Assembly (NCBI GenBank): GCA_024641305.1
Contig: JAHEDI010000009.1
Coordinates: forward strand, 1 to 32,173
DNA length: 32,173 bases
Direction: 5' to 3'
Source of the DNA: a bacterium
GTDB lineage: Bacteria; Actinomycetota; Acidimicrobiia; Spongiisociales; JAENVV01
A program made the translations under genes and the position numbers. Shown here one piece after another: positions 9,061-29,142 of this stretch (position 1 is its first letter; each line of letters opens with the position of its first letter). The notes under the pieces were generated by a model, which saw only the letters and a program-made list of their open reading frames with translations, searched no databases and had not been told where the DNA came from.

Positions 9061-9078
9061 GCCCTGCGCTTCAAGGGC
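9061..9078. terminator. Short hairpin between convergent genes
   Basis: GCCCT (9061-9065) pairs with AGGGC (9074-9078) around an 8-nt loop, exactly filling the gap between the stop of the ABC ATPase and the stop of the UPF0182 gene. The stem is only 5-6 bp and no T tract follows on either side, so termination is uncertain. Confidence 0.25.
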
Positions 9079-11741
9079 TAATTCAGGCCGAGTTTCTCTA
9101 CTGCCACTTTCAGCGCCTCGGACACCGAATCGGCTTGACCAACTGACCCGCTCGAGACGGCCGCCACACCGTACAGTCGTGGCGCCGTGGCATCGGCCGT
9201 ACCGATGACGACAATGGATCGAACCCAGACCAGTGCCCCTTCGACAGGAATAGGCGTCATCGGACCGAATTGAACCGCCGATCCGTTGGCGTTGAGCAGC
9301 GTAAACAGCGCAGCTAGATCCCGGTCCGTATCGATGGCCGCCTGGGCCACTCTCGGGTCGGACACCGGTCGACCAGGAGCGACTTCGATCCGAACCAACC
9401 GGAGGTTCTCAGGATTGTCGTGATCGGCAATTGCCAAAGCCGACAGCTCATTTCGAGCCGCAGCCGCATTGCCTGCCGAACCGACTCCATATGGGCGTAT
9501 CGCCACCCAATGCCCGGCGAGCGGCTCTGACTCGGGCATGAACAGCGACGCTGATGGAGCGGGGACTACGGGGGTGGAGCCGGCAGTACCCGAGGCCCGG
9601 GCCACGCCGTCGCCAGCGGACGCGCTAACCGCCCAGCTGTCCGAGCCATTGAAGAGGGTTTCGGCGTCCGACACGTGATAGCGGCCCAGCATCGACGTCT
9701 GAACGGTCAGGAGGTCATGGGGATACAGCAGATGATCACGCAACGAACCCGGCATGTTCGATATTGGCTCGACCAGGCCAGGAAAGATCGAAGACCAGGC
9801 GTCCAGAATGGGGTCATCGGCACCGCCGACCTCGGTCCGATACAGGTGAACGGTTCCATCGTAGGCGTCGACGGTTGCCTTGACAGAGGCGTGCATATAG
9901 TTGAAAGCCCGTCCGGACATACCGCTGGTCGTCGGGAGTCCTACCGAGCGAGCGAACTGCGAATGTGGGTACGTATTCGAGCTGGTATATCCATCGACGA
10001 TCCACGTGACTGCCCCGTCTGCTACCACTGGGTAGGGGTTCGAATCGAAAGACAAGAACGGGGCAAGCGCCGACAAACGTTCGCGAATGTCGCGCCGATA
10101 CAACAACTGAGAGTCGTCGGTCAGTTCCGAAGACACAACGGGTTCGATCTCACCCACACTCAGACCGAGAGTCAGTCGACGCCATAGGCTCGTGAGGGGA
10201 ATTCCGGTGCCGCCGTCGAATGCGGCGCCCCCCACCTCGGTGCGGTTGGTGCCGACGATCGCGTACCAACCAGCAAGATCCTCACCAAAATACAATTCGG
10301 GTCGTTCGGCCACCACTATTTCGGCTAGAGCAGCCAAATCAGGCCGACCATCAGCGGCCATGACATCGGCCGGAACAGCGATCACTCCGTCACCATGCGT
10401 ATAGACGAGATGGAACTGCACCCAGCCCTTCTCGGGGAGATCGGTCCGGCTGGAGTTTCGAGCCGCGATCAGGACAGGCCTGACAACCCCATCGATCTCG
10501 TACCGATCAAGGTCGACATCCCGAATCCGCGTGGCCGTCGTTCCCATCAGGACTTGTAGCGGCGCCACCATCTGATCCTCGTTCAGCAGCGGGATCCGTT
10601 TAAGGTCAGATTCAAGCGAAGCGCCTGGCGGACCATCGAGTCCATCAGCAAACGATTCCGTCACATGTTCGACCGAGCCGAGACCATACGCGGCGACGGT
10701 GGCTTCGAGATTGTCCGCAATGTATGGCAATTGACGTTCGCCTTCGGCCGGCATGACCACCAGCCAGGTAACCAGCGCCGGAAGAACCCAAAGAAGTGCG
10801 ACTTGGAGAGATCCCCACACGGCCAACCCGACCAGGGCCGGTCGCCACTGGGACCTTCGTACCCCGTAGAGCATGAGGGCGGCGACTCCAACAGCCACCA
10901 GAGCCATCACCCATAGCGACGGAACGATCACCTTCAATTCGGTGAACCCCGGGCCGTCAAAAGCACCATATTGGTTGGTTCCATTAGCGGGCCATTGTAC
11001 GAACAGGTAGGTGAGCGCTTGAGTGACGGCGTAGCCGGCTGCAATCAATCCCAGGTGCCTCAGGGCTCGCTCCGAGGAGCGCTTGCCGCCTCGCGGAATC
11101 TTGATAGCCCCATTGGCGATGTACCCGACAAGGGCGATTCCGCCAGCTATCAGCAACACCTGCCGGAGCCAACCGCTGGCCACGGTAAGGAACGGGAGAC
11201 GGAAGAGATGGTATCCGAGGTCCCACCCGATGTGTGACACGTCCTGACCCAGGTTGGGGCCATGTAGGAACAGCAGCCAAGGCTTCCATTGTCCCATCGC
11301 TGCCCAGGAGTCGCGCAGGATAACCAACATCGCCACCCCGAACAGCAGCCAGCGGTGGCCGGCTCCCATCCGCTGCCGGTACCTGACAACCAGCCGGTTG
11401 GGAAAGTTATCCCGGGCTGGTGTCATTCGATAGGCCGACCAGGCGGTCGGAAGCAGAATCGCGCCGGCAACTAGCAGCGCCAAGGCCGCCATAGTGAGCT
11501 GGGCGCGAACCTCGGTAGACCAGACGGAGGCGGTCGTAACCGTATCAAACCACCACATATCAAGTGCCATGTGAGCAACCCGACGGATGACGAATGCCAG
11601 CAGCACAAGGGCTATCAGCCCGGCACCCAGGCGGCGTTGCGGGGTGGTGCGGCGTTCTAACCACGCCACTATTGGGAAAGGAGGAGCAATTGGTCGGGTG
11701 ACGATCTGATGCAGATTAGGCATGATTTGGGGTTGCCGCAT
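9078..11741 (-). CDS. UPF0182 family membrane protein
   Basis: The 887-residue protein belongs to the UPF0182/COG1615 family, known across actinobacteria, cyanobacteria and clostridia and of unknown function. Several hydrophobic helices fill the N-terminal third, followed by a large domain probably outside the membrane. Hallmarks are NRTEVGGAAFDGGTGIPL, the SFDSNPYPVV strand followed by a TWIVDGYTSSNTYPHSQ segment, and a FNYMHASVKATVDAYDG segment. Length is usual for the family (about 900-1000). ATG 11741 is chosen; TTG 11765 would add 8 residues and ATG 11723 would remove 6, and none has a clear ribosome binding site. The gene lies 57 nt after the TIGR03084 gene on the same strand, so a two-gene transcript is plausible. 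Confidence 0.9.
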   Translation of the reverse strand: MRQPQIMPNLHQIVTRPIAPPFPIVAWLERRTTPQRRLGAGLIALVLLAFVIRRVAHMALDMWWFDTVTTASVWSTEVRAQLTMAALALLVAGAILLPTAWSAYRMTPARDNFPNRLVVRYRQRMGAGHRWLLFGVAMLVILRDSWAAMGQWKPWLLFLHGPNLGQDVSHIGWDLGYHLFRLPFLTVASGWLRQVLLIAGGIALVGYIANGAIKIPRGGKRSSERALRHLGLIAAGYAVTQALTYLFVQWPANGTNQYGAFDGPGFTELKVIVPSLWVMALVAVGVAALMLYGVRRSQWRPALVGLAVWGSLQVALLWVLPALVTWLVVMPAEGERQLPYIADNLEATVAAYGLGSVEHVTESFADGLDGPPGASLESDLKRIPLLNEDQMVAPLQVLMGTTATRIRDVDLDRYEIDGVVRPVLIAARNSSRTDLPEKGWVQFHLVYTHGDGVIAVPADVMAADGRPDLAALAEIVVAERPELYFGEDLAGWYAIVGTNRTEVGGAAFDGGTGIPLTSLWRRLTLGLSVGEIEPVVSSELTDDSQLLYRRDIRERLSALAPFLSFDSNPYPVVADGAVTWIVDGYTSSNTYPHSQFARSVGLPTTSGMSGRAFNYMHASVKATVDAYDGTVHLYRTEVGGADDPILDAWSSIFPGLVEPISNMPGSLRDHLLYPHDLLTVQTSMLGRYHVSDAETLFNGSDSWAVSASAGDGVARASGTAGSTPVVPAPSASLFMPESEPLAGHWVAIRPYGVGSAGNAAAARNELSALAIADHDNPENLRLVRIEVAPGRPVSDPRVAQAAIDTDRDLAALFTLLNANGSAVQFGPMTPIPVEGALVWVRSIVVIGTADATAPRLYGVAAVSSGSVGQADSVSEALKVAVEKLGLN

Positions 11742-11798
11742 CGTGACAGGGGTTGGCGAACTCAATCAGCCGCCCGTTGAAGGCCTGTCCGACGAGCG

Positions 11799-15082: not shown

Positions 15083-16885
15083 ATGGGCGTGAGGGAGCAC
15101 CGGGAGGAACAGCGGCAACGCCGCCTGTTGAAGCTGTCCGGATGGCTGCTCATCCCGGCCGGATACTTGTGGTGGCGGATCGCATCCGGCCAGCCGATGT
15201 TCCCCCAGATCACCCTGCCAGACGAAGCCATGTTCTGGCTGCCCGGCCTGGCGATCATTCTCCTACTGTCGATCGTCATGGTGGCGCCGATGCTCACCAA
15301 TTCTCGATCCCCTCACATCATGTTCTTGCCAGAACAGATTGACATCGGATTCGATCAGGTCCAGGGAATGGGCCGCATCGTCGAAGATGTCAAGCACACC
15401 CTTACCGTCTTGACCGATAACGACCAGTTCCGCAATCAGATGGGCGGCACACCGCGACGGGGCATTCTCTTTGAAGGACCGCCAGGGACCGGCAAGACCC
15501 ACCTGGCCAAGGCGATGGCCAAGGAAGCCGGAGTTCCGTTTCTCTTCGTTTCATCGACCGCCTTCCAGAGCATGTGGTACGGAATGACCGCCCGGAAGAT
15601 CCGCGCCTACTTCAAGGCCCTTCGAAAAGTCGCCCGTGAAGAAGGCGGCGTCATTGGCTTCATCGAGGAAATTGACGCCATCGGTATGCGGCGATCTGAA
15701 ACCTCGGAGTCCCACGCGGATCTGAGCATCAACCGCTCGATGTCGTCTGGGACCGGGGGCGTGGTCAACGAACTTCTGATCCAGATGCAATCGTTCGATC
15801 AACCTGCCGGGCGCGAAAAGCTCCACAATTGGACGGTGGCCAGGGCCAACAAGTTCTTGCCGGCTCACCGCCAGATCCAAATCAAACCCACTCCGTACAA
15901 CAATGTCCTTCTCGTCGCTGCCACGAACCGGGCCGCCTCGCTGGACACCGCGCTTCTGCGCCCTGGCCGCTTTGACCGCCAGCTACATTTCGGGATCCCT
16001 GGTTCGTCGGCCCGACGCGAGCTGATCGATTTCTTCCTAGGCACGAAGTCACATGATCCCGAACTTGACGAGGATCAGGTACGGGTTGACATCGCATCAG
16101 CGACCCTCGGATACACCCCCGCGTCCCTCGAACGCCTCTTCGACGAAGCACTACTCATTGCCCTGCGGGATCACCGCAATGCCTTGTCGCTCGATGACGT
16201 GTGGCAAGCCAGAACCGACACCGAGTTGGGCCTTGCCGAACCCGTCGACTCCCCCGAGCACGAACGCGAATCAATTGCCATCCACGAGGCCGGCCACGCC
16301 ACGGTCGCCTACCTGGTTGGGAAAGGCCGTCGCCTCGAGATGCTTTCCATCATCAAGCGCCGGGAAGCGCTCGGATTCCTCTCCCACCGCATGCAGGAAG
16401 AGCGTCACACACAAAAGCGGAGCGAACTCGTCGCCCTCATTCAGATCTCCCTTGGCGGCATGGTGGCCGAGGAACTCTTCTTCGGTGAGTCGGGAACCGG
16501 TCCCGCCGGTGACCTCTCAGCAGCCACCAATGCGGCCGTCGAAATGGTCGGGTCACTCGGAATGGGTGGATCACTCGTCTCGTTCCGGGCTCTTGATCCT
16601 GGCGTGCTCGGCGGCAATCTGGCGGCCAAAGTGCTCTCGGATTCCCAAGCGCGCGGCCAGGTGGATGCAATTCTCAGTGAGAACAAGGTAATCGTCGACG
16701 ATCTCCTCAGCCGTCATCGTCATGTTGTCCGGGCTCTGGCTGACGCGCTTCTCGACCGGAACGAACTGATCGGTGACGAAATCATCGACGTCATCCTGGC
16801 GGCCCAGCGGGCTAGCGACCTGCCAATCGAGATCGATCTGCGCGATGGCGTGCCGGTGATAGGTCCACACTCCCCGGTCGGTTAG
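15083..16885 (+). CDS. FtsH-like membrane-bound AAA zinc metalloprotease, divergent
   Basis: This 600-residue protein has two N-terminal membrane helices (about 18-33 and 51-72), an AAA module and an M41 peptidase domain. Walker A is GPPGTGKTH (132-140); Walker B reads IGFIEEIDA (191-199), so the usual Asp is Glu195 while catalytic Glu196 is kept. The pore loop is FQSMWYGM (161-168) in place of the usual F-V-G type. The second region of homology has TNRAASLDTALLRPGRFDR (281-299) with its Arg fingers. About 35-40 extra residues (239-273) sit between Walker B and that region. Zinc ligands are His401 and His405 in HEAGH and probably Asp477 in GDLSAAT, so proteolysis should be possible. ATG 15083 has GGAG 7 nt upstream. 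It likely degrades membrane or unfolded proteins and is probably a second, specialised FtsH paralogue. Confidence 0.88.
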   Translation: MGVREHREEQRQRRLLKLSGWLLIPAGYLWWRIASGQPMFPQITLPDEAMFWLPGLAIILLLSIVMVAPMLTNSRSPHIMFLPEQIDIGFDQVQGMGRIVEDVKHTLTVLTDNDQFRNQMGGTPRRGILFEGPPGTGKTHLAKAMAKEAGVPFLFVSSTAFQSMWYGMTARKIRAYFKALRKVAREEGGVIGFIEEIDAIGMRRSETSESHADLSINRSMSSGTGGVVNELLIQMQSFDQPAGREKLHNWTVARANKFLPAHRQIQIKPTPYNNVLLVAATNRAASLDTALLRPGRFDRQLHFGIPGSSARRELIDFFLGTKSHDPELDEDQVRVDIASATLGYTPASLERLFDEALLIALRDHRNALSLDDVWQARTDTELGLAEPVDSPEHERESIAIHEAGHATVAYLVGKGRRLEMLSIIKRREALGFLSHRMQEERHTQKRSELVALIQISLGGMVAEELFFGESGTGPAGDLSAATNAAVEMVGSLGMGGSLVSFRALDPGVLGGNLAAKVLSDSQARGQVDAILSENKVIVDDLLSRHRHVVRALADALLDRNELIGDEIIDVILAAQRASDLPIEIDLRDGVPVIGPHSPVG

Positions 16886-16936: not shown

Positions 16937-17920
16937 ATGCAGAAGGCCTTTACTCCTTTCAAAGCCGGCTTGGGGTTCCTCGGCGTGCTCGCCGTGGCTG
17001 CCGCCGTGTCCCGAATCGACGGTTGGGGTGACCCGGCATCTAACGAAAGTGCTATCGGGGAAGTCTCACGCTGGTGTGAGCGGGTCGGATCCGGACTACT
17101 TCGCGAACCAATTAATACGCTCGGAAACCTCGGATTTGTCATCTCGGGACTCGCCATGCTCTACGTCCTTGGCAAAGACCGGGCTTCGGGCCTTCCTGCT
17201 ACGAATCGCTTCATCGGGCACTCGCCCCTGGCGCTGCTGTACGCAGGCGCCGCCCTGTTCCTGGGTCCAGGTTCCATGGCGATGCATGGGACTCACACCC
17301 AATTCGGGGCGTGGCTCGACAATGTTTCGATGGTGGCCTACATCCTGGTCCCCTGGCTTCTCAACGTGTCAATCATGGGGCGCTGGTCGAACCGTCGGCT
17401 CTACGGCACCTACGGAAGCCTTTTGGCCATCTACGCGCTCGGATACTGGTTCATTGGCAGCGACCTCGGTATCGGCCTCGACCTGTTCGGCGTAAGCATC
17501 GCCCTGTGGATCATCTCCGAAGTTCTGTACAGATTCCACTCCCCGACGATGCGCTGGGCATCTGGCTTTGTCGGCTTCCTGGTCGGGGCAATCTTCGGGG
17601 TCACGCCGGCCGTCATCGGGGCGGATCTCGCCGGGCACTGGTGGATCCTCTTCTTCGGGCTACCGGGATTGTTGAGTACCCACCCACCGGAAGGTCGCCG
17701 TCGCTACATCCCGTGGTACTGGGTCGGTTCGATCGCGTTCGTGGCGGCGTATGCCATCTGGCTTACCGGCACCAACGACCATCCTGCCTGCAATCCTGAC
17801 TCGCTCATCCAAGCCCACGCCATCTGGCATATGCTCGGGGCGGTCTCGACCTGGAGCTTCTTCATATTCCTGAGAACCGAAACCGTGAAAACCCTTTCGC
17901 CGGTGCAAGCCGCCGGCTAG
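16937..17920 (+). CDS. CREST-superfamily membrane hydrolase, ceramidase-like
   Basis: The 327-residue membrane protein has about seven helices. Motifs of the alkaline ceramidase/PAQR/Per1 (CREST) superfamily are present in order: WCERVGSGLLREPINTLGNLGF (46-67), GPGSMAMHGTHTQFGAWLDN with Ser113, His117 and Asp128, and AHAIWHMLGA with His294 and His298. Together these form the predicted zinc site of an amide hydrolase acting within the membrane. Known relatives hydrolyse ceramides or other lipid amides; the bacterial substrate is unknown. No ribosome binding site precedes ATG 16937. The gene follows the protease by 51 nt and converges on pirin with only 11 nt between stops. Confidence 0.78.
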   Translation: MQKAFTPFKAGLGFLGVLAVAAAVSRIDGWGDPASNESAIGEVSRWCERVGSGLLREPINTLGNLGFVISGLAMLYVLGKDRASGLPATNRFIGHSPLALLYAGAALFLGPGSMAMHGTHTQFGAWLDNVSMVAYILVPWLLNVSIMGRWSNRRLYGTYGSLLAIYALGYWFIGSDLGIGLDLFGVSIALWIISEVLYRFHSPTMRWASGFVGFLVGAIFGVTPAVIGADLAGHWWILFFGLPGLLSTHPPEGRRRYIPWYWVGSIAFVAAYAIWLTGTNDHPACNPDSLIQAHAIWHMLGAVSTWSFFIFLRTETVKTLSPVQAAG

Positions 17921-19519: not shown

Positions 19520-19549
19520 GTGCAATAGTTGGACGTCCAACTATTGCAC
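19520..19549. promoter_or_regulatory. Perfect 30-bp palindrome, probable MarR operator
   Basis: The left half GTGCAATAGTTGGAC is mirrored exactly as GTCCAACTATTGCAC, centred between 19534 and 19535, with no spacer and no mismatch. It lies in the 75-nt gap between the divergent MarR gene (19501) and the mutase gene (19577). MarR dimers usually bind palindromes of 16-20 bp near their own promoter, and this one is longer, possibly for two dimers. A role in coordinated repression of both arms is inferred from position. Confidence 0.8.
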
Positions 19550-19576
19550 GGAACAGAGCTGCTCAAAGGAACCACC

Positions 19577-21223
19577 TTGTCAGACAGACCCGATTTGGAG
19601 CAAGATCGACGGACCTGGCAAGACGCCTACGACCGCACACCACTGCGCGACGTTGACTTCGAAACGATGTCCGGCATTCCGGTCGACCCGGTCTATGGCG
19701 AAGGGCCCAATCCAGGCGAGTATCCGTTTACCCGAGGCATCCGCCCATCGATGTATCGATCTCGACTGTGGACGATGCGCATGTTCGCCGGATTCGGTAC
19801 CGCCAGCGACACCAACGCTCGCTTCAAAGAAATTCTTCGCAACGGTGGTACGGGCCTATCAACCGCGTTCGACATGCCGACCCTCATGGGCCGCGACTCC
19901 GACCACGAATGGGCCCTCGGCGAAGTCGGACGGGCTGGAGTAGCCGTCGACACGCTGGCAGACATGCGCGACCTCTTCGCCGGCATCGACCTTGGCCACG
20001 TTTCGACATCGATGACCATCAACGGGCCAGCCCACATCATCATGGCCATGTATATCGCCCTTGCCGAGGAGACTTCTGTCGAACGCTCGTCTCTGAGCGG
20101 CACGATCCAGAATGACATCCTCAAGGAATACCAGGCGCAGAAGGAGTACATCTTCCCGCCCAGGCCGTCGATGCGTCTCATCACCGATCTCATCAGATTC
20201 ACAGCGACCGAAATGCCCCGCTGGCATCCGGTATCGGTTTCGGGTTATCACATCAGGGAAGCCGGAAGCAACGCCCAACAGGAACTGGCGTTCACCCTCG
20301 CCAACGGGTTCGCCTATGTAGAAGCGGCCGTCGCCGCCGGCCTCGATATCGACGACTTCGCTCCCCGATTGAGCTTTTTCTTCAACAGTCACAGTGACTT
20401 CTTCGAAGAGGTAGGCAAGTTCCGTGCGGCCAGACGGATCTGGGCAAGGTGGATGAAGGAACGGTACGGGGCTCAGGACGAACGGAGCATGCTCTGCCGA
20501 TTCCACACCCAGACCGCTGGCGTGTCCCTTACGGCACAACAACCCGAGATCAACGTCGCCCGGGTCGCCCTGCAAGCACTAGCTGCCGTTTTAGGTGGTT
20601 CTCAGAGCCTGCACACAGACAGCTTCGACGAAGCGATGGCCCTGCCTACTGAAGACGCCGCCCGCATCGCGTTGCGAACCCAGCAAATCATCGCCTACGA
20701 GACCGGGGTCGCCAACGTAGCCGATCCACTCGGAGGTTCAGCCTATGTTGAATGGATGACCGACGAAATCGAACGACGAGCCGAGGAGATCTTCGCCCAT
20801 CTCGACCAGCTTGGAGACGGTTCGATCCTCGAAGGGGTTTATGCAGGCATCGACAACGGATACTTCGTTGGAGCCATTGCCGACTCCGGATACCGGTTCG
20901 AGCGCGCCGTTAATGCCGGGCGTCGAATTGTGGTTGGCGTCAACCAGTTCACCGAAGGCGACCACCCCGGCGACCGGAACCTCCTCCGGATCGACCCGCA
21001 AGTCGAAGTCGACCAACTAAAGAGGTTGGCAACCGTCAAACAGGCGAGGAACACAGCTGCCGTGCACGCTGCTCTGTCGGAGTTGGCGATCGATGCCGCC
21101 GAACCAACAGCCAATGTCATGCCTGCCACCATCCGTGCGGTCCACGCCCTCGCGACCGAGGGTGAAATCGTTGCAGCCCTCGAAGCGGTGTTCGGCACGT
21201 ATGAAGAAACGGCAGTCATGTGA
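19577..21223 (+). CDS. B12-dependent acyl-CoA mutase, large (catalytic) subunit
   Basis: This 548-residue subunit is the TIM-barrel domain of the methylmalonyl-CoA mutase superfamily, without the B12-binding domain. Hallmarks are [72 protein letters not shown] and [18 protein letters not shown]. It rearranges the carbon skeleton of an acyl-CoA by a radical mechanism. The position of the substrate-contacting Tyr of methylmalonyl-CoA mutase (RQYAGF) is Phe here (RMFAGF), while the His in SGYH is kept. The Ile and Asp that I recall from 2-hydroxyisobutyryl-CoA mutase are Phe and Ala. TTG 19577 is chosen because AAAGGA precedes it and a TTG at 19529 would lie inside the operator. It overlaps the small-subunit gene by 4 nt. 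The substrate is unresolved. Confidence 0.9.
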
Positions 21224-21621
21224 TTCAGCCTCCCCTTCGTATCGTCCTTGCCAAGATCGGCTTCGATGGCCACGACCGCGGGCTCCGCATGGTCGCCCGC
21301 ATGTTGCGCGACGCCGGTTGCGAGGTCATCTACCTCGGCCTGCGCCAAACCACCGAAAACGTGGTCGCGGTGGTCGAACAAGAAGATGCTGATGCGGTCG
21401 GGCTGTCGATGCACAACGCCCAACATCTGACCCTGGCACCCAGGATGGTCGCCGCGCTCCGCAATGCCGACCTCGAGGTACCCGTGATTCTCGGCGGGGT
21501 GATTCCCGACCAGGACGTCGCTCCGCTCATGGATGCAGGGGTCGCCGTCATCCTCGGTCCTGGGTCCTCCGCCGAAAAGGTTGTCTCAGCCGTCCGCACG
21601 GCCGTAGCCTCTCGCTCGTGA
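21220..21621 (+). CDS. B12-binding small subunit of the acyl-CoA mutase
   Basis: This 133-residue Rossmann-like cobalamin-binding protein has the base-off/His-on motif D-x-H-x-x-G as Asp16, His18 and Gly21 in KIGFDGHDRG, followed by GLSMHNAQHL and ILGGVIPDQD, which line the nucleotide-tail pocket. As in HcmB/IcmB-type small subunits, it supplies adenosylcobalamin to the separate catalytic subunit. GTG 21220 overlaps the large-subunit stop, and its own stop overlaps the start of the next gene, so translation is coupled and stoichiometric. Confidence 0.93.
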   Translation: MIQPPLRIVLAKIGFDGHDRGLRMVARMLRDAGCEVIYLGLRQTTENVVAVVEQEDADAVGLSMHNAQHLTLAPRMVAALRNADLEVPVILGGVIPDQDVAPLMDAGVAVILGPGSSAEKVVSAVRTAVASRS

Positions 21622-22592
21622 AACGCGACTCAGTTAGCCCGACCGACCTCCTCCAGGTGGCAAGGTCCGGCAATCGTCACGCGGTCGGCCGGCTTCTCTC
21701 ATTGGTTGAGAAGGGGGGAACCATTGCAGACGAGGTAGCCGCAACCACCCATCCCCTGAGCGGCGACGCACGGATCATCGGGATTACCGGACCCCCTGGT
21801 TCGGGCAAGTCCACCCTCGTGAGTCAACTCTTGAAGGTCATAACCCAGGCCGGTCTGAAACCGGCAGTGATTGCAGTTGACCCGTCGTCACCCCTCACAG
21901 GGGGCGCCATACTCGGGGACCGGGTCCGGATCGACGCTACCGACACCGGCACCTTCATCCGATCGATCGCCACACGCGGACATGCTGGAGGCCTGGCCCT
22001 CGGAGTCCCTGGCGGCGTCAGGGTGCTTGACGCAGTCGGATACGACCCGATCATCATCGAAACGGTCGGAGTCGGGCAAGTCGAGGTCGATGTGACAGCT
22101 ACCGCCGACACGACCATCGTCGTGGCCAACCCCGGGACCGGAGACGCCGTCCAGGCCAATAAAGCGGGACTGCTCGAAGTGGCAGACATCTTCGTGGTGA
22201 ACAAGTCTGATCTCGCCGGCGCCGACGACGCCCGCCGCGACCTGGAATTGATGTTGGATTTGAGTCACATGACCGGACAGGAAGATCCAACCGGGCGCCG
22301 TCCACCCATCGTCATGGCCAACTCGCTGGATGGTTCTGGCTCGATTGAGCTCTGGTCAGCCATTGTCGCCCACGGCAACCATCTCGTATCAACCGGTCAG
22401 ATCAAGGGACGCAGAGCGGCTAGAGCCAGGGCCGAACTCCACAGTCGGGCAGCCGATCGGCTTCTGGCCGCATTGGACCAGACCATCGATTCTCCAGCGG
22501 GACGGGCCATCGTCGACGCGTTACAAAACAAGGACATTTCGCCGACAGAGGCGAGCGATCAATTGATACGACCGATCCTGCGCCAAGACTGA
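21618..22592 (+). CDS. meaB: MeaB/ArgK-type G3E GTPase, mutase chaperone
   Basis: This 324-residue GTPase loads and protects the adenosylcobalamin cofactor of acyl-CoA mutases. It shows the P-loop GPPGSGKST (58-66), the switch stretch VDPSSPLTGGAILGDRVRI, IIIETVGVGQVEVDV and the base-recognition motif NKSD. The length and the C-terminal dimerisation tail match MeaB. It starts at GTG 21618, overlapping the small-subunit stop. The order large subunit, small subunit, MeaB in one tightly packed operon strongly suggests it serves this mutase specifically. The name ArgK (LAO/AO transport kinase) in databases is historical. Confidence 0.93.
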   Translation: MKRDSVSPTDLLQVARSGNRHAVGRLLSLVEKGGTIADEVAATTHPLSGDARIIGITGPPGSGKSTLVSQLLKVITQAGLKPAVIAVDPSSPLTGGAILGDRVRIDATDTGTFIRSIATRGHAGGLALGVPGGVRVLDAVGYDPIIIETVGVGQVEVDVTATADTTIVVANPGTGDAVQANKAGLLEVADIFVVNKSDLAGADDARRDLELMLDLSHMTGQEDPTGRRPPIVMANSLDGSGSIELWSAIVAHGNHLVSTGQIKGRRAARARAELHSRAADRLLAALDQTIDSPAGRAIVDALQNKDISPTEASDQLIRPILRQD

Positions 22593-23141: not shown

Positions 23142-23439
23142 GGTGGTGCCTTTCATTAGTTGAGTGCTGGAACAACTGTACCCGTATCCCCCGATGGTCG
23201 GTAAGCCGTCGAAGTGAGGACACGTAGACGAGCCCGCCGGACCGGCGAGGACCGAGAAATTGCTACGTGTATTCACTATGGCGGGCCACAGCACGCTAAC
23301 GTCTCATCCAATGGTGAGGCTTGAGACCTGGCTCGGGACGCACAACGTCTCCCGGGCGTCGTTGCATTCGCCGATCCCGGCCAGATTGCGACAGCAATTG
23401 TGGCCGCAGGAAAGAAAGCTCGAAAGGAATCGATTGCTT
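23142..23439. other. Divergent intergenic region, osmC and LIV-transporter leader
   Basis: This 298-nt gap must hold the promoters of osmC and the importer operon. A small inverted repeat, ATTGC-GACA-GCAAT, sits at 23385-23398, about 40 nt before the binding-protein start. It could be an operator or a leader hairpin, though five-base arms may be chance. No gene is supported here; the open frame upstream of 23440 is out of keeping with the signal peptide that follows. Confidence 0.4.
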
Positions 23440-24738
23440 ATGAAGCTCAAAAACTACCGAGGCCTTATGGCGCTCCTTGTGGTCCTGGCGCTGGTTGCCG
23501 CAGCATGCGGCAGCAGTGACAGCGACGGTGACAGCGACGGGAGCACCAATGGGGGCCCACCTGCCGTATGCGCGTCCGATGCGTTTGGCTGCGTCGAAGT
23601 TGCCTCCGGCGACCCCATCAAAATCGGTTCGTTGCTGGTGACCACCGGCCCGAACTCATCGCTTGGACTCGATAGCCAGTACGGGATCGAAATGGCCCTC
23701 GACTACGCCGACGGCACATTCGACGACACCAACATCACGATCCAGGGCCACGACGTGGTTCTCGTTCCTGAAGACGATGGATGTTCAGCCGAAGGTGGAA
23801 CCGCCGGCGCCAACAAACTGGCCGCCGACACACAGATCGTTGCCGTTATCGGTACGAGCTGTTCATCTGCTGCGCTTGGCACTGCCGACAAGATCCTGGG
23901 CGACAAAGGTGTGACGTTGATTTCACCGTCGAATACCAGCCCGGCCCTAACTGCCGAAGCCACTCGTAACCCGTTTTACTTCCGCACCGCCCACAACGAC
24001 ACGTTGCAGGGAGCGGCCGTAGCCGAGTTCGCGTACAACTTCGAAGGCGTCAAGACCGCCGCCACGATCCATGATGGAAGCCCATACGCCGAAGGCCTCG
24101 CCAACGCGTTTGCTGCTTCGTTCGAGGCCCTTGGTGGAACCATTACGAGCCAGGATGCCATTCAGGTCGGAGATACCGACTTCAGCGGCGTGCTCGCATC
24201 GATCCAGGCAGAATCGCCTGAATTGCTCTACTTCCCGATCTTCGTGGGAGAAGGCAGCCTTCTGGTTCAGCAGGCCAAGACCACCTTGGGCGATTCGGTC
24301 GTCCTGACCGGTTCTGACGGCCTCTGGTCCGATGACTTCTATGCAGCAGCCGGCGACGGTGTCTTCCTGTCGGGTCCCGACGTCTCGGCGTTCGCCGGCG
24401 ATGCCGCCCTGTACAAAGACATCTTCCTACCTCGCTATGCCGAAAAGTACGGATCTGAGCCACTGTCCGCTTTCCATGCTCATGCATGGGACGCCGCGAA
24501 CATCGTGCTCGGAGCCATCGAGAAGGTAGCTGTCGATTCCGGCGGCACGCTGTACATCCCGCGTAGCGGGCTGCGCGATGCCATCGCCGCCACGAGTGGC
24601 TACACCGGCATCACTGGAACGCTTAGCTGTAACGGTAATGGCGACTGCCAGCCGTCGGCCACGATCGCCGTGTTCGAGATTGTCGGGGGCAAGCAAGCTG
24701 CCGACCCTGTGTTCAGCGTCGTGAAGTCGCTCGAGTAA
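23440..24738 (+). CDS. livJ: Branched-chain amino acid-type ABC transporter substrate-binding lipoprotein
   Basis: This 432-residue periplasmic-binding-protein-like lipoprotein belongs to the Peripla_BP_6 (LivJ/LivK) family. The signal peptide ends LVAAAC with Cys23 as the lipidation site, followed by an Asp/Ser/Gly linker. IKIGSLLVTTGPNSSLG opens the first lobe; IGTSCSSAALG and LISPSNTSPALT carry the ligand-contacting serines and threonines; YPxxx-type hinge strands follow. Ligands in this family include Leu/Ile/Val, amides, urea and short acids, so the ligand is unproved. ATG 23440 follows AAAGGA by 11 nt, and TTG 23434 (5 nt away) would add two residues. The gene heads a five-gene importer operon and ends just before a strong hairpin. 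Confidence 0.9.
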   Translation: MKLKNYRGLMALLVVLALVAAACGSSDSDGDSDGSTNGGPPAVCASDAFGCVEVASGDPIKIGSLLVTTGPNSSLGLDSQYGIEMALDYADGTFDDTNITIQGHDVVLVPEDDGCSAEGGTAGANKLAADTQIVAVIGTSCSSAALGTADKILGDKGVTLISPSNTSPALTAEATRNPFYFRTAHNDTLQGAAVAEFAYNFEGVKTAATIHDGSPYAEGLANAFAASFEALGGTITSQDAIQVGDTDFSGVLASIQAESPELLYFPIFVGEGSLLVQQAKTTLGDSVVLTGSDGLWSDDFYAAAGDGVFLSGPDVSAFAGDAALYKDIFLPRYAEKYGSEPLSAFHAHAWDAANIVLGAIEKVAVDSGGTLYIPRSGLRDAIAATSGYTGITGTLSCNGNGDCQPSATIAVFEIVGGKQAADPVFSVVKSLE

Positions 24739-24756
24739 CCGTCAAGACGAAATAGT

Positions 24757-24780
24757 GGGAGGGGGCTTCGGCCCCCTCCC
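24757..24780 (+). terminator. Perfect 10-bp hairpin with UUCG loop after the binding-protein gene
   Basis: GGGAGGGGGC (24757-24766) and GCCCCCTCCC (24771-24780) pair fully around TTCG. No T tract follows, so it probably works as a partial terminator or as an RNA stabiliser protecting the 3' end of the binding-protein mRNA. This would give more binding protein than permease, as is common for such importers. Confidence 0.8.
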
Positions 24781-24819
24781 TGTTACCCAAAACCGAGTTC
24801 ACTGGAGAGAGTGACAAAT

Positions 24820-25908
24820 ATGACGACGCAATCCGCGGCTGGTAGTCGGTATCGACTTTTCCTCGAACGATTTCCCGTCAGACGTTTCGTCCTCGTTTTG
24901 CTTGCGCTGGTGATCGCCTACGGCGGCGCCGCCGGATCCATTGCCACCCTGCGGGCGGGCCGATTCTCGGGCGAAGTCTGGGCGAACCTTTTCATTTCTG
25001 GCGTGGCTCGTGGAAGCGTGTATGCCATCATCGCTCTCGGCTACACCCTCGTTTACGGCATTCTCTTCATCATCAACTTTGCGCACGGTGAAGTATTCAT
25101 GGCCGGAGCTTTCACCGCCTACTTCGTGGCCGTCGGGCTTGCATCCAAGGGCATGCTGGAATCGAACCCCATTATCTCCATCGGGATCCTTTTCGTCGTT
25201 TCGTCGCTGGTATCGATGGGCGTGGCCATCCTTCTCGAAAGAATCGCCTACCGCCCGTTGCGCGGCGCTCCCCGCCTCGTACCGCTTATCACCGCCATTG
25301 GCGCCTCATTGTTTCTCCAGTACACGTTCCGGGGTTTCTACGGCGCCAATGCCCGGGCTTACCCCACGATTCCCGCCATCCAGGGGACCTGGGAGATCGG
25401 CAGCTTCCCGGTACAGAAAGTCCACCTCATCTCGATTCTCGGGGCGGTGGCACTCTGGCTGGTCCTGTTCTGGATCGTGGAAAGAACCCGGGTCGGGCGG
25501 GAAATGCGAGCCGTCGGTGAAGATCGCGAAATCGCCGCTCTGATGGGGGTCGACGTAGACCGAACGATCGTTTTCACTTTCGGCATCGGTGGAGCCTTGG
25601 CCGGAGCTGCCGGGATTCTTTACGTTTTCCTCTTCAACCAGGTCATATTCACGATGGGTTTCTTCCCCGGATTGAAGGCATTCACAGCTGCGGTGCTCGG
25701 CGGCATCGGTTCGATCACGGGTGCGGCACTCGGTGGATTGATTCTCGGGATCCTCGAAACGGTCGGCCCCAACCTGTTCCTCGATGGGGCCGGGGTACCA
25801 TCTCCCAACCAGTTGATCCCCATCGTGGCATTCGGCATTCTGGTTCTGGTCTTGATCTTCCTGCCCGGAGGCTTCCTTGGCGCTCCTGACGACAAGAGCC
25901 GCGCATGA
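24820..25908 (+). CDS. livH: LIV/HAAT-type ABC importer permease, LivH family
   Basis: The 362-residue inner-membrane permease has an N-terminal anchor helix and about eight further helices of the BPD_transp_2 family. ARGSVYAIIALGYTLVYGIL and NFAHGEVFMAGAF near the start and GREMRAVGEDREIAALMGVD (the coupling-helix loop facing the ATPases) are diagnostic, as is GFFPGLKAFTAAVLGGIGS near the end. ATG 24820 is preferred, as GGAGAGA lies about 9 nt upstream; GTG 24811 touches that site. It overlaps livM by 4 nt. With LivM it forms the heterodimeric channel. Confidence 0.92.
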   Translation: MTTQSAAGSRYRLFLERFPVRRFVLVLLALVIAYGGAAGSIATLRAGRFSGEVWANLFISGVARGSVYAIIALGYTLVYGILFIINFAHGEVFMAGAFTAYFVAVGLASKGMLESNPIISIGILFVVSSLVSMGVAILLERIAYRPLRGAPRLVPLITAIGASLFLQYTFRGFYGANARAYPTIPAIQGTWEIGSFPVQKVHLISILGAVALWLVLFWIVERTRVGREMRAVGEDREIAALMGVDVDRTIVFTFGIGGALAGAAGILYVFLFNQVIFTMGFFPGLKAFTAAVLGGIGSITGAALGGLILGILETVGPNLFLDGAGVPSPNQLIPIVAFGILVLVLIFLPGGFLGAPDDKSRA

Positions 25909-27638
25909 CCCCGGAACTTCGACGCTCGGTCCGGCAGGGTCTTATCGGTGGTGCCGTGGTCCTCTACCTCGCCTCGGTCGGCATGCTCGTTGCCTTTGAC
26001 GCACGAGCGATCATCACGAACGTCGTCAACTTTGCGACGGTTCTAATCGTGATCACGTTTGCCGCCTTCGGATACCTGGCGGGCCGACCCGGTAAGGGTG
26101 GCGAACCAGCCCAACCATTCCTCCTGGCCGGAGCGGTCACCGGTGCCGTCGCCGGCGCAACAGTCGGCGTGGTGGCCGTACTCGTGGATTTCCTGATCAC
26201 GGGTCTCGAATGGGATGTCCGCAGCATGTGGACCAGCGTCAGCCCCACTTTGATGGAGCTGCTGTCATTCGGCCAATCGCCCATCGTTGGCGCCCTCCTG
26301 ATGACCTTGCTCGGCTTCACGGCCGGACTGGCCGCCGGTTCACTCCATCTGGCGACAACCATCACCCGCAAAGTCATCCTGTTGGGCTTGATGGCCTTTG
26401 TCTTCGGTGCTCTCGGAGCTCCCTTGTTCAAGGTCATGCTTGACGGCATGCACATTCCCAACCGGTGGCTCTTTGACCGCGACGGTCTCACCATCACCGG
26501 AGCCATCGTGCTGTTCGCCGCATTCGGCCTCGCCCGATTGGGATCGTTTCGGGTGGGTGGTCCCCGCCAGGCCCTATTGAAGGTACCCGGAACTTCCGAG
26601 AAAAACCTTCGGTGGGTGATCAGTGTCCTGGCGCTCCTCGGTATTGCGGTTCTGCCATGGATCGTCAACGATTTCGTCTCAGACGTACTCGGGTTCGTCG
26701 GCCTGTATATCTTGCTCGGTCTTGGGTTGAACATCGTCGTCGGCTTCGCCGGTCTGCTCGACCTGGGATACGTCGCTTTTTACGCGGTGGGTGCGTATTC
26801 GGTAGCCATCCTCACCGCTCGCAGTTCCTACCTCGTTGGAGGGTCCGTCACGGCTCCGGCCGTCGCCGGGTACACCAATTTTTGGGTGGCAGTGCCCATT
26901 ACGATCCTCATCGCGGTGGTCATCGGCGTTGCGATTGGTGCCCCGGTTCTCCGTCTGAGAGGCGACTATCTGGCCATCGTCACCCTCGGATTTGGCGAAA
27001 TTATTCGGACGTTGGTGCTGTCCGATTGGCTAAAGGCCAAGTTCGGTGGCCCGCAAGGCCTGACCGAAGTAGCCGCGGTTCCCTTCTTTGGGCTGAACAC
27101 CAGAGATCCCCAGATCCTCTACTACCTCATCTACGCCTTCGCCGGTTTGGCGCTCTTCATTTCGTATCGCCTCAAGACATCCCGGGTCGGCCGGGCGTGG
27201 GCGGCCATGCGAGAGGACGAAGACATCGCCGAAGGCATGGGCGTAAGCGTCATCAAATACAAGCTGCTCGCCTTCGCTACGGGAGCGGCGGTGGGATCTT
27301 TGGGAGGAGCGTTCTTCGCCGCCAAGCTGTCCGTTGCCAACCCCGGTTCGTTCACGTTGCTGGTTTCGATCAACGTACTCGCGGTCGTCGTACTGGGCGG
27401 CATCGGTTCGATTCCGGGCGTAGTCGTTGGGTCTCTTGTCCTGGTTGGACTTCCCGAACTGCTTCGCGAATTCGGCGAGTTCCGATTGCATATCTACGGT
27501 GCCATCCTGATCGCCATCATGATTCTCAAGCCCGAAGGCCTGATTCCCGACAAGCGTCGAGCCCTCGAACTTCACCAGCCCGATCACCAACCCGAGAAGT
27601 CCGTACTGAGCGCCGAGGCAACGGAAGGTATCCAATGA
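25905..27638 (+). CDS. livM: LIV/HAAT-type ABC importer permease, LivM family, with extra N-terminal membrane domain
   Basis: This 577-residue permease is much longer than usual LivM (about 300-420). The core runs from about residue 234: GLYILLGLGLNIVVGFAGLLDLGY, VLRLRGDYLAIVTLGFGEI and the coupling loop GRAWAAMREDEDIAEGMGV are typical. Residues 1-230 add about six hydrophobic segments (near 12-30, 36-58, 71-97, 126-150, 156-177 and 196-211) with Gly/Ala-rich helices such as LLAGAVTGAVAGATVGVV. I recognise no family for that part. The soluble tail after PEGLIPDKRR is also long. The gene starts at ATG 25905, overlapping livH, and overlaps livG by 4 nt. Confidence 0.9.
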   Translation: MTPELRRSVRQGLIGGAVVLYLASVGMLVAFDARAIITNVVNFATVLIVITFAAFGYLAGRPGKGGEPAQPFLLAGAVTGAVAGATVGVVAVLVDFLITGLEWDVRSMWTSVSPTLMELLSFGQSPIVGALLMTLLGFTAGLAAGSLHLATTITRKVILLGLMAFVFGALGAPLFKVMLDGMHIPNRWLFDRDGLTITGAIVLFAAFGLARLGSFRVGGPRQALLKVPGTSEKNLRWVISVLALLGIAVLPWIVNDFVSDVLGFVGLYILLGLGLNIVVGFAGLLDLGYVAFYAVGAYSVAILTARSSYLVGGSVTAPAVAGYTNFWVAVPITILIAVVIGVAIGAPVLRLRGDYLAIVTLGFGEIIRTLVLSDWLKAKFGGPQGLTEVAAVPFFGLNTRDPQILYYLIYAFAGLALFISYRLKTSRVGRAWAAMREDEDIAEGMGVSVIKYKLLAFATGAAVGSLGGAFFAAKLSVANPGSFTLLVSINVLAVVVLGGIGSIPGVVVGSLVLVGLPELLREFGEFRLHIYGAILIAIMILKPEGLIPDKRRALELHQPDHQPEKSVLSAEATEGIQ

Positions 27639-28423
27639 GTCACCTCCTGGATGTGAAGGGATTATCGATCCGCTTCGGTGGCGTTCAAGCCGTCAACAAG
27701 GTCGACTTTCATGCCGATCCCGGCGAAATCGTCGGTGTCATCGGACCGAACGGAGCTGGAAAGACCACCCTCTTCAACATCATCACCGGCTTCTACAGTC
27801 CCGACGAGGGCACCATGATCTTCGACGGTCACAACATCTCAGGACTCAAGCCCAACGCCCTGACCCGCCTCGGCATGGCAAGGACGTTTCAATCGGTAAG
27901 GCTCTTCAACGCGATGACCGTCCTCGAAAACGCCATGGTCGGCCAGCACACCCGGACCAAAGCCGGGGTGTGGGGGGCCCTCACGCGCTCGTCGAAAACA
28001 AAATCCGAAGAGGATCGAATCCGCGAAAGAGCCCGGGAAGTGCTGGCGTTCTTCGGCGATCGTCTGTCAGGACGCGAGGATGCCCTTGCTTCCGACCTTG
28101 CCTACGCCGACCGGCGTCGGCTGGAAATTGCCCGTGCCATGGCCACGGATGCCAAGCTTCTGTTACTGGACGAGCCGGCGGCCGGAATGAACCCGGCTGA
28201 GAAAGATGGATTGATTAGTCAGATCGGCCGTCTTCGGTCTGAGCTCGGCTATTCGATCATCCTCATCGAACACGACATGCCGGTCATCAAGAGCGTATCC
28301 GACCGGGTCGTCGCTCTCGATCACGGCGAGAAAATCACCGAAGGGACCTACGACGAGGTGTCGACCAACAAGCAAGTTATCGAGGCCTACCTCGGCAAGG
28401 CCGCCGAGGAGTCGCACCTATGA
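27635..28423 (+). CDS. livG: LIV/HAAT-type ABC importer ATPase, LivG family
   Basis: The 262-residue ATPase has Walker A GPNGAGKTT (37-45), TFQSVRLF in the Q-loop, Walker B LLLLDEPAAGMNP (175-187) and the H-loop IEHDM. The signature, normally LSYGQQRR in LivG, reads LAYADRR (155-161), replacing the small Gly by Ala and the Gln by Asp. The insertion SSKTKSEEDRIRERAREVL before it is usual for LivG. ATG 27635 follows GGAAGG by about 6 nt and overlaps the livM stop. It pairs with LivF to drive uptake. Confidence 0.92.
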   Translation: MSHLLDVKGLSIRFGGVQAVNKVDFHADPGEIVGVIGPNGAGKTTLFNIITGFYSPDEGTMIFDGHNISGLKPNALTRLGMARTFQSVRLFNAMTVLENAMVGQHTRTKAGVWGALTRSSKTKSEEDRIRERAREVLAFFGDRLSGREDALASDLAYADRRRLEIARAMATDAKLLLLDEPAAGMNPAEKDGLISQIGRLRSELGYSIILIEHDMPVIKSVSDRVVALDHGEKITEGTYDEVSTNKQVIEAYLGKAAEESHL

Positions 28424-29142
28424 CCGCCATCCTGTCAGTCAACGACGTCGACGCCGGATATGGACCAAGCGAGGTTCTCCAAAAGGTCAATATCTATGTG
28501 GACGAGGGCGAGATCGTTTGCCTGCTCGGTTCTAACGCCGCCGGCAAGAGCACCACACTGCGGACCATCCTCGGGATGGTCCGGGCCAGGGCCGGAACCA
28601 TCTCGCTGCGCGGGGAACAGATCCAAACCCTATCGACCCAGCAGATCGTATCGAAAGGCATCACGATGGTGCCCGAGAATCGCCGACTGTTCGCCAAAAT
28701 GACTGTACGAGAGAACCTTGAGATCGGCGCCAACATGCGCAGAGACAAGGCTGAGATCCTGACCGATATCGACCGGGTATTCCTGCTGTTTCCACGCCTC
28801 AAGGAGCGGGTTGCGCAAAAAGCCGGGTCTATGTCGGGGGGCGAGCAGCAGATGTTGGCCATCGGGCGGGCGTTGATGGCCAAACCGTCGGTCCTCCTCA
28901 TGGACGAACCGTCGATGGGTCTCGCCCCGATCCTGGTTCAGCAGGTCTTCGAAACCATCCAGCAAATCAACGCAGACGGCGTGACCGTGTTGGTCGTCGA
29001 ACAAAACGCCAACGTAGCGCTCGCCATTGCGGATCGTGGCTACGTCATCCAGACCGGTCGGATTGTGATGTCCGACACGGCAAAAGCGATGCTCGCCAAC
29101 CCGAAGCTCCGCGACGCCTACCTGGGCGAATTGGAAGGCTAA
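28420..29142 (+). CDS. livF: LIV/HAAT-type ABC importer ATPase, LivF family
   Basis: The 240-residue ATPase has Walker A GSNAAGKST (37-45), the canonical signature MSGGEQQMLAIGRAL, Walker B VLLMDEPSMGLAP and VEQN in the H-region, as usual for LivF, where His is replaced. VPENRRLFAKMTVRENLEIGA is the family Q-loop block. It overlaps livG by 4 nt and closes the operon. Its canonical signature contrasts with the altered one in LivG, so the two nucleotide sites may be functionally unequal. Confidence 0.93.
   Translation: MTAILSVNDVDAGYGPSEVLQKVNIYVDEGEIVCLLGSNAAGKSTTLRTILGMVRARAGTISLRGEQIQTLSTQQIVSKGITMVPENRRLFAKMTVRENLEIGANMRRDKAEILTDIDRVFLLFPRLKERVAQKAGSMSGGEQQMLAIGRALMAKPSVLLMDEPSMGLAPILVQQVFETIQQINADGVTVLVVEQNANVALAIADRGYVIQTGRIVMSDTAKAMLANPKLRDAYLGELEG

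Follow-up and report, generated by a model that had tools for sequence, protein, structure and literature searches.

A conserved second FtsH-type protease of Actinomycetota with a changed Walker B motif and a fixed-length insertion in its AAA domain

The window, that is the whole stretch of 32,173 nucleotides of DNA analyzed here, carries at positions 15083-16885 of the plus strand an open reading frame for a protein of 600 amino acids, whose ATG start is preceded by a GGAG stretch. The protein combines an AAA domain (Pfam, 101.6 bits) with a peptidase M41 domain (101.8 bits), both above the respective cut-off. With TIGR01241, the equivalog model of FtsH, it reaches 279.1 bits and stays below the curated cut-off of 600; proteins of this kind are easily filed as “AAA family ATPase”. 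Its best relatives of solved structure by sequence are FtsH chains, and FtsH structures are also among its best fold matches, which indicates an FtsH-like fold. The gene and its parts are located as follows:

15083..16885, plus strand: FtsH-like AAA and M41 membrane protease, a paralogue of what is here called the EE clade, 600 amino acids (Pfam, TIGR01241, relatives)
15125..15295, plus strand: N-terminal transmembrane hairpin, residues 15-71 (hydropathy, Pfam)
15476..15499, plus strand: Walker A GPPGTGKT, residues 132-139, intact (alignment)
15572..15583, plus strand: pore loop 1 MWYG, residues 164-167; MFVG in canonical FtsH (alignment)
15659..15676, plus strand: Walker B FIEEID, residues 193-198, with Glu195 where canonical FtsH has the Mg-coordinating Asp (alignment)
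15677..15763, plus strand: pore-loop-2 region, residues 199-227 (alignment, structure model)
15788..15796, plus strand: inter-subunit signaling (ISS) motif QSF, residues 236-238; DGF in canonical FtsH (alignment; motif as defined in passages of PMC5415569 and PMC12994072)
15797..15901, plus strand: segment of constant length after the ISS motif, 35 residues, 239-273 (alignment, structure model)
15920..15970, plus strand: sensor 1 N282 and arginine fingers R293 and R296, intact (alignment)
16283..16297, plus strand: zinc-binding HEAGH, residues 401-405, intact (alignment)
16511..16513, plus strand: third zinc ligand Asp477, intact (alignment)

The zinc ligands, the P-loop, the catalytic Glu, the sensor-1 Asn and the arginine fingers are all kept in the window protein, and a preliminary description of the sequence, which had taken HEAGH (401-405) and the third zinc ligand (D477) to be intact, was right on both. 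For comparison we aligned 70 distinct relatives, namely 68 distinct rows after removal of one duplicate and two deep rows that are 43-44% identical; the aligned matches are a subset of all matches, comprising the ones taken up as loci and the ones fetched afterwards. L073, L074 and L077 were left out (below 500 bits, with split frames or cut contigs); the first two also read FIEEID and QSF, and the aligned piece of L077 is without the Walker B region. L078 (72 residues) and L079 (from a Bacillus contig) were unusable as rows. Lys138, Asn282, Arg293 and Arg296 are kept in all 70 relatives, as is the zinc site with its HExxH ligands and the downstream Asp477. PF00004 and PF01434 were matched in each of the 31 clade members scanned, i.e. 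the AAA domain is fused to M41 throughout.

Compared with L040, a relative with 526 of 595 residues identical (88%), dN/dS is approximately 0.05 for the whole gene and 0.03 for its AAA part. This value and the wide conservation rule out a broken gene. As the features described below recur in all 70 distinct relatives and dN/dS is so low, they are not explained by chance or assembly noise. As judged from the sequence comparison, the residues for ATP binding and hydrolysis and for peptide cutting are retained under purifying selection.

The Walker B motif FIEEID, pointed out before as a departure from FIDEID, is real (193-198) and present in 70 of the 70 relatives, each of which possesses Glu195-Glu196, QSF at 236-238, and a segment of exactly 35 residues that separates QSF from the following strand. 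The canonical paralogues differ in every one of these respects: all 29 rows read DE in Walker B, have DGF where QSF immediately precedes the insertion in the window clade, and provide only 5 residues in the post-ISS region. The excess is therefore 30 residues; the preliminary description had placed the extra residues correctly (239-273) and had overestimated their number at 35-40. It had also asked for orthologues sharing both the exchange of Asp for Glu and the insertion, and this combination was found in 70 of 70 relatives and in none of the 29 canonical sequences. Five out of five canonical FtsHs fetched from other named bacteria possess Asp and DGF and are without the insertion.

Pore loop 1 is indeed MWYG in the window protein (164-167; canonical MFVG), as had been noted. 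Among 68 rows the motif is MWYG in 42, MWFG in 14, MWQG in five, MYYG in three and something else in four; both deep rows have MYYG. Further features had escaped the earlier inspection, namely the QSF motif itself, a very short loop between the transmembrane segments that contains no FtsH_ext domain, and a pore-loop-2 region that is long and variable. The latter measures 24 to 71 residues within the clade, compared to 20 in canonical rows, and is modeled with low confidence.

We further report that the Phe of the ISS motif (Phe238) is invariant in the 70 relatives. In the post-ISS segment conservation is mainly found at D239, P241, N256, L259 and P260, with a variable middle part. Measured against L040 this segment has a dN of 0.17 with saturated dS. 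These codon estimates point to strong constraint on the gene as a whole; the 35-residue segment is less constrained in sequence than the rest, with an invariant length. AlphaFold2 single-chain models were obtained for the full chain (mean pLDDT 72.0, with parts of M41 below 50) and for the AAA part alone (mean pLDDT 78.2). In both, the ISS helix (223/225-239) is immediately followed by another helix at 243-256/258, predicted with pLDDT values of 73-86; an extended stretch makes up the rest of the predicted segment. Judged from the position of the ISS motif, the insertion would be situated at the interface between subunits.

A few words on the role of the altered sites in better known proteins may be helpful. 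The position of Glu195 is one that we take, from the Walker B motif, to be that of D304 in p97. In p97 this Walker B Asp holds Mg in the ADP.Pi state (passages of PMC10914628). The ISS is described as a helix before sensor 1 that ends in an acidic residue and relays the nucleotide state to the next subunit (passages of PMC5415569); in YME1L it is DGF and transmits the nucleotide state between subunits (passages of PMC12994072), and its phenylalanine is reported to be crucial in YME1 (PMC7018516).

Hydropathy assigns two N-terminal transmembrane segments to the window protein, with predicted helices at 3-35 and 49-72. On this scale the segment at 49-72 is strong, and the one within helix 3-35 is weaker. 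As the N-terminus is basic and the AAA domain cytoplasmic, both termini are probably inside. The outside loop between the two segments has a median length of 17 residues in the 49 of 69 EE rows in which two segments were called, compared to 85 residues in canonical rows (27 of 29, by hydropathy). None of 31 clade members matches the FtsH_ext domain (PF06480), which the canonical FtsH of the same genome contains with 32.1 bits.

The genome of the window (G000, 3.42 Mb in 93 contigs, completeness 97.1) encodes two M41 proteins. The second one, on contig C86, is a canonical FtsH with FtsH_ext, AAA and M41 domains, so that the window gene is not the only ftsH of its genome, a point the preliminary description had wished to see checked. 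The M41 search of 40 relatives returned at least one M41 protein in all 40; the incomplete genome G036 (56%) has the window type alone, and the window-type match of G009 is a fragment without M41 domain. Like the canonical bacterial FtsH (TIGR01241), the window protein is a fusion of AAA and M41 with two N-terminal transmembrane segments and with the zinc site HExxH...D, Walker A, catalytic Glu, sensor 1 and two arginine fingers. Unlike it, the window protein has Glu in Walker B, QSF, 30 additional residues and MWYG, has no FtsH_ext, and falls short of the model cut-off; the two proteins of this genome are only approximately 31% identical.

To place the clade we calculated trees after removing the alignment columns that hold the traits in question (both pore loops, Walker B, ISS and insertion). 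One tree contained 24 of the 69 EE rows and another 15, each together with the two deep rows. A branch separates the EE and deep rows from all others, with a support of 100 in the first tree and 100/100 in the second, and the canonical FtsHs form a separate clade (100/100). Canonical and EE rows have different fixed residues (at least 95%) at 31 positions and the same fixed residue at 74. The notion of a specialized paralogue, put forward at the outset, is supported at the level of sequence: it is a second FtsH, it forms a clade, and it differs at these 31 positions. The accompanying proposal, that ATPase coupling or the choice of substrates is altered, is plausible, as the substitutions affect sites that coordinate Mg or signal between subunits.

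Two further actinobacterial clades lie between the EE clade and the canonical clade in the tree. “SIS” (L140-L148, nine rows) has a Walker B of FIDEID type, DG[FLM] as ISS motif and 23-24 post-ISS residues; “THIRD” (L160-L166, seven rows) has FFDEAD, [SN]GL, 24 post-ISS residues and an open frame of more than 750 amino acids. Both resemble the EE clade in the fusion of AAA to M41 and in the post-ISS segment, and both differ in the retained Walker B Asp and in the ISS motif; THIRD proteins are moreover larger than the window protein and have at least four transmembrane-like segments. Post-ISS segments of similar size occur in Nonomuraea gerenzanensis (L169), which falls within THIRD, and in the more distant Thermomicrobium roseum WP_012643090.1, which is near SIS and THIRD without firm placement. 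Long branches join THIRD and the canonical set, and the deepest branching order is therefore unsure. As these sister clades keep the Asp and yet carry a segment of 23-24 residues, the insertion is probably older than the change to Glu. Most simply, Glu and QSF would have arisen once, on the stem of the EE clade.

Some observations on these relatives are worth recording on their own. Sensor 1 of THIRD reads ATNL or ATNM, i.e. the Arg is lost together with the acid of the ISS, and ATNR is found in the Nonomuraea row. THIRD proteins also have a very long pore-loop-2 region and 4-5 transmembrane-like segments. The T. roseum protein is encoded on a plasmid (L168:2288-4186) and annotated only as “AAA family ATPase”; it is a relative of M41 type in which Walker B reads FIDEID, the ISS resembles DPP and a similar insertion follows the ISS.

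A match at E <= 1e-60 is present in 34 of 59 related genomes with 55-100% identity. The search for related loci gave 40, of which 39 are strong relatives or pieces of one; the remaining one, on the Bacillus contig, is distant. Across the phylum 80 of 396 sampled genomes match the window protein at E <= 1e-120; seven of these have a match of SIS type only (445-500 bits) and nine have both kinds. An EE-type match hence occurs in 73 of the 396 genomes, one being partial at 529 bits; the division between EE and SIS in this survey was made by score, and all nine of the 16 low-scoring matches that were read have Asp. The named contigs with relatives belong to metagenome-assembled Acidimicrobiia, other Actinomycetota and one member of the Nitriliruptoraceae. 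One contig titled Acidobacteria (that of L077) is a fragmentary metagenome bin. Many actinobacterial genomes thus carry a second FtsH-type protease. Titles and abstracts of open-licence papers yielded no report on this clade or on Glu for Asp in the Walker B motif of an FtsH.

The neighborhoods were inspected in 40 stretches of 10-18 kb and in the window, as well as in a separate set of 6-kb flanks, and no operon partner common to all lineages was found; absences are weak here, as the calls of open reading frames in high-GC stretches include shadow frames. Neighbors recur within lineages only, the gene having lineage-specific chromosomal contexts. In one group the opposite strand carries genes like those of S-adenosylhomocysteine hydrolase and phosphoglucomutase/phosphomannomutase; another has crotonyl-CoA carboxylase/reductase, a carboxyltransferase and acetyl-CoA acetyltransferase. 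In the window a ceramidase-like membrane protein (16937-17920, plus strand) begins 51 bases past the stop of the protease on the same strand, and this order recurs in L040, the relative with 88% identity. The window also encodes the large subunit of methylmalonyl-CoA mutase, a separate B12-binding subunit and MeaB in a row (19529-22592, plus strand), and a branched-chain amino-acid-type ABC transporter with binding protein, two permeases and two ATPases (23260-29142, plus strand). In the latter cluster the open frame called at 26612-28423 runs into the second permease and has probably been predicted longer than it is. A large UPF0182 membrane protein of 895 amino acids is encoded at 9078-11765 on the minus strand. 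A link between the protease and the acyl-CoA metabolism of the mutase or crotonyl-CoA neighbors is possible. We did not infer a substrate because the lineages share no neighboring partner.

Two other identities were considered and rejected. A defense function was suggested by PADLOC through matches to the AAA domain only (IetA with 80 bits, TRIP13), and PADLOC gave no match for the three neighbors scanned. With regard to a mobile origin, plasmid and phage collections matched at less than 60% identity only; of 40 matches listed seven were fetched, and these contained canonical or sister-like FtsHs and none of the EE type.

The alignments demonstrate, as far as residues can tell, that changes at the nucleotide site and at the signaling motif go together: Asp to Glu, DGF to QSF, and an insertion of fixed length. 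On this basis we regard it as rather probable that the gene encodes an active protease paralogue of AAA+ type, conserved and anchored in the membrane, in which the nucleotide cycle and the coupling of subunits have been retuned. It would be a second, ancient FtsH-type enzyme beside the canonical FtsH, a AAA+ ring anchored by a transmembrane hairpin and equipped with an active M41 domain. Glu195 might change the way in which Mg and phosphate are held after hydrolysis, so that the ring would fire with a timing different from that of canonical FtsH. QSF and the insertion could replace or supplement the DGF switch, the insertion helix after the ISS helix taking over part of the signaling between neighboring subunits. 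The near-absent extracytoplasmic part and the pore loop with Trp and Tyr may favor different substrates, mainly in the cytoplasm or at the membrane surface. A stricter version, according to which the lineage replaced the DGF switch by QSF and a helical insertion and changed Walker B from Asp to Glu in step with it, is one that we hold tentatively and would sooner bet against.

For the proposed role of the insertion, the post-ISS nucleotide-communicating loop of Msp1 offers a comparison. Passages of PMC7018516 describe a degenerate ISS in Msp1, followed just C-terminally by a short insertion and this loop, and another mode of communication. Msp1/ATAD1 and other AAA proteins of the meiotic clade thus resemble the window protein in an altered ISS with a following insertion at the same place of the AAA fold, a likeness in how things may work and nothing further. 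Msp1/ATAD1 are not known to contain an M41 protease. Moreover, in Msp1 it is the ISS Phe that is replaced, by an aliphatic residue, whereas the window clade keeps the Phe and loses Asp-Gly, and the insertion of the latter comprises 30 residues while that of Msp1 is called short in the same source. A precedent for a second FtsH beside the core one is PaFtsH2 of the tLST island, for which a narrower activity is reported, with the substrate difference mapping to the linker between membrane and cytoplasm and with spread by horizontal transfer (passages of PMC10850787). As PaFtsH2 differs through its linker, N-terminal differences can matter for substrates; the changes of the window clade, in contrast, are in the AAA core, and its gene is found in lineage-specific chromosomal contexts.

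Some facts speak against retuning. The exchange of Asp for Glu leaves the charge as it was and might be nearly neutral, and the ISS Phe and both arginine fingers are unchanged; as the Phe is retained, the change in signaling may be mild. The insertion, variable in its middle, and the Glu need not be linked, since the related clades have 23-24 residues at this place with a normal Walker B. The kept charge, ISS Phe and arginine fingers, with the FtsH-like overall fold, also fit an ordinary divergence in which a second FtsH works as the canonical one does and E195, QSF and insertion are old, neutral or compensated. We consider this unlikely, though it is the alternative to be taken most seriously: the three features are fixed in all relatives down to approximately 43% identity, 31 positions are fixed differently from canonical FtsH, and the length of the segment is constant while the adjacent pore-loop-2 region varies.

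Another alternative is a regulatory or partner subunit: the protein would assemble with the cell's canonical FtsH into mixed rings, and its altered nucleotide site would make it the slow or sensing member. FtsH pairs in plants, cyanobacteria and mitochondria are a precedent, and the genome carries both proteins. Strictly regulated pairing is known where several FtsH homologues exist (passages of PMC9020784), and paraplegin has a degenerate ISS, DGM (PMC7018516). We nevertheless find such a partnership improbable, given the low identity of approximately 31% to the putative partner, the absence of a matching periplasmic domain, the different post-ISS segment and the complete proteolytic site. 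Least of all do we expect an unfoldase or holdase that no longer degrades and whose M41 domain is structural: the low M41 score (102 bits, compared to 254 bits for the canonical FtsH of the same genome) would agree with it, but all 70 relatives keep the HExxH and the third Asp ligand, unlike inactive forms of FtsH. The FtsHi type of such forms is defined by the loss of the zinc-binding site.

The EE-clade protein is neither ordinary FtsH variation nor a new type of system, but a widely conserved variant of a known machine. Which of the six subunits of a AAA+ ring fires next is a question that has been studied mostly with mutants. If the lineage did replace the DGF switch in the way outlined above, naturally evolved rings would exist that fire under an inter-subunit rule unlike that of FtsH, YME1 or AFG3L2, and the sister clades, with insertion and Asp, would preserve an intermediate stage. 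Canonical FtsH, the sisters with insertion and normal Walker B, and the EE clade with insertion, QSF and EE form a natural series, each step of which can be compared in proteins kept by selection.
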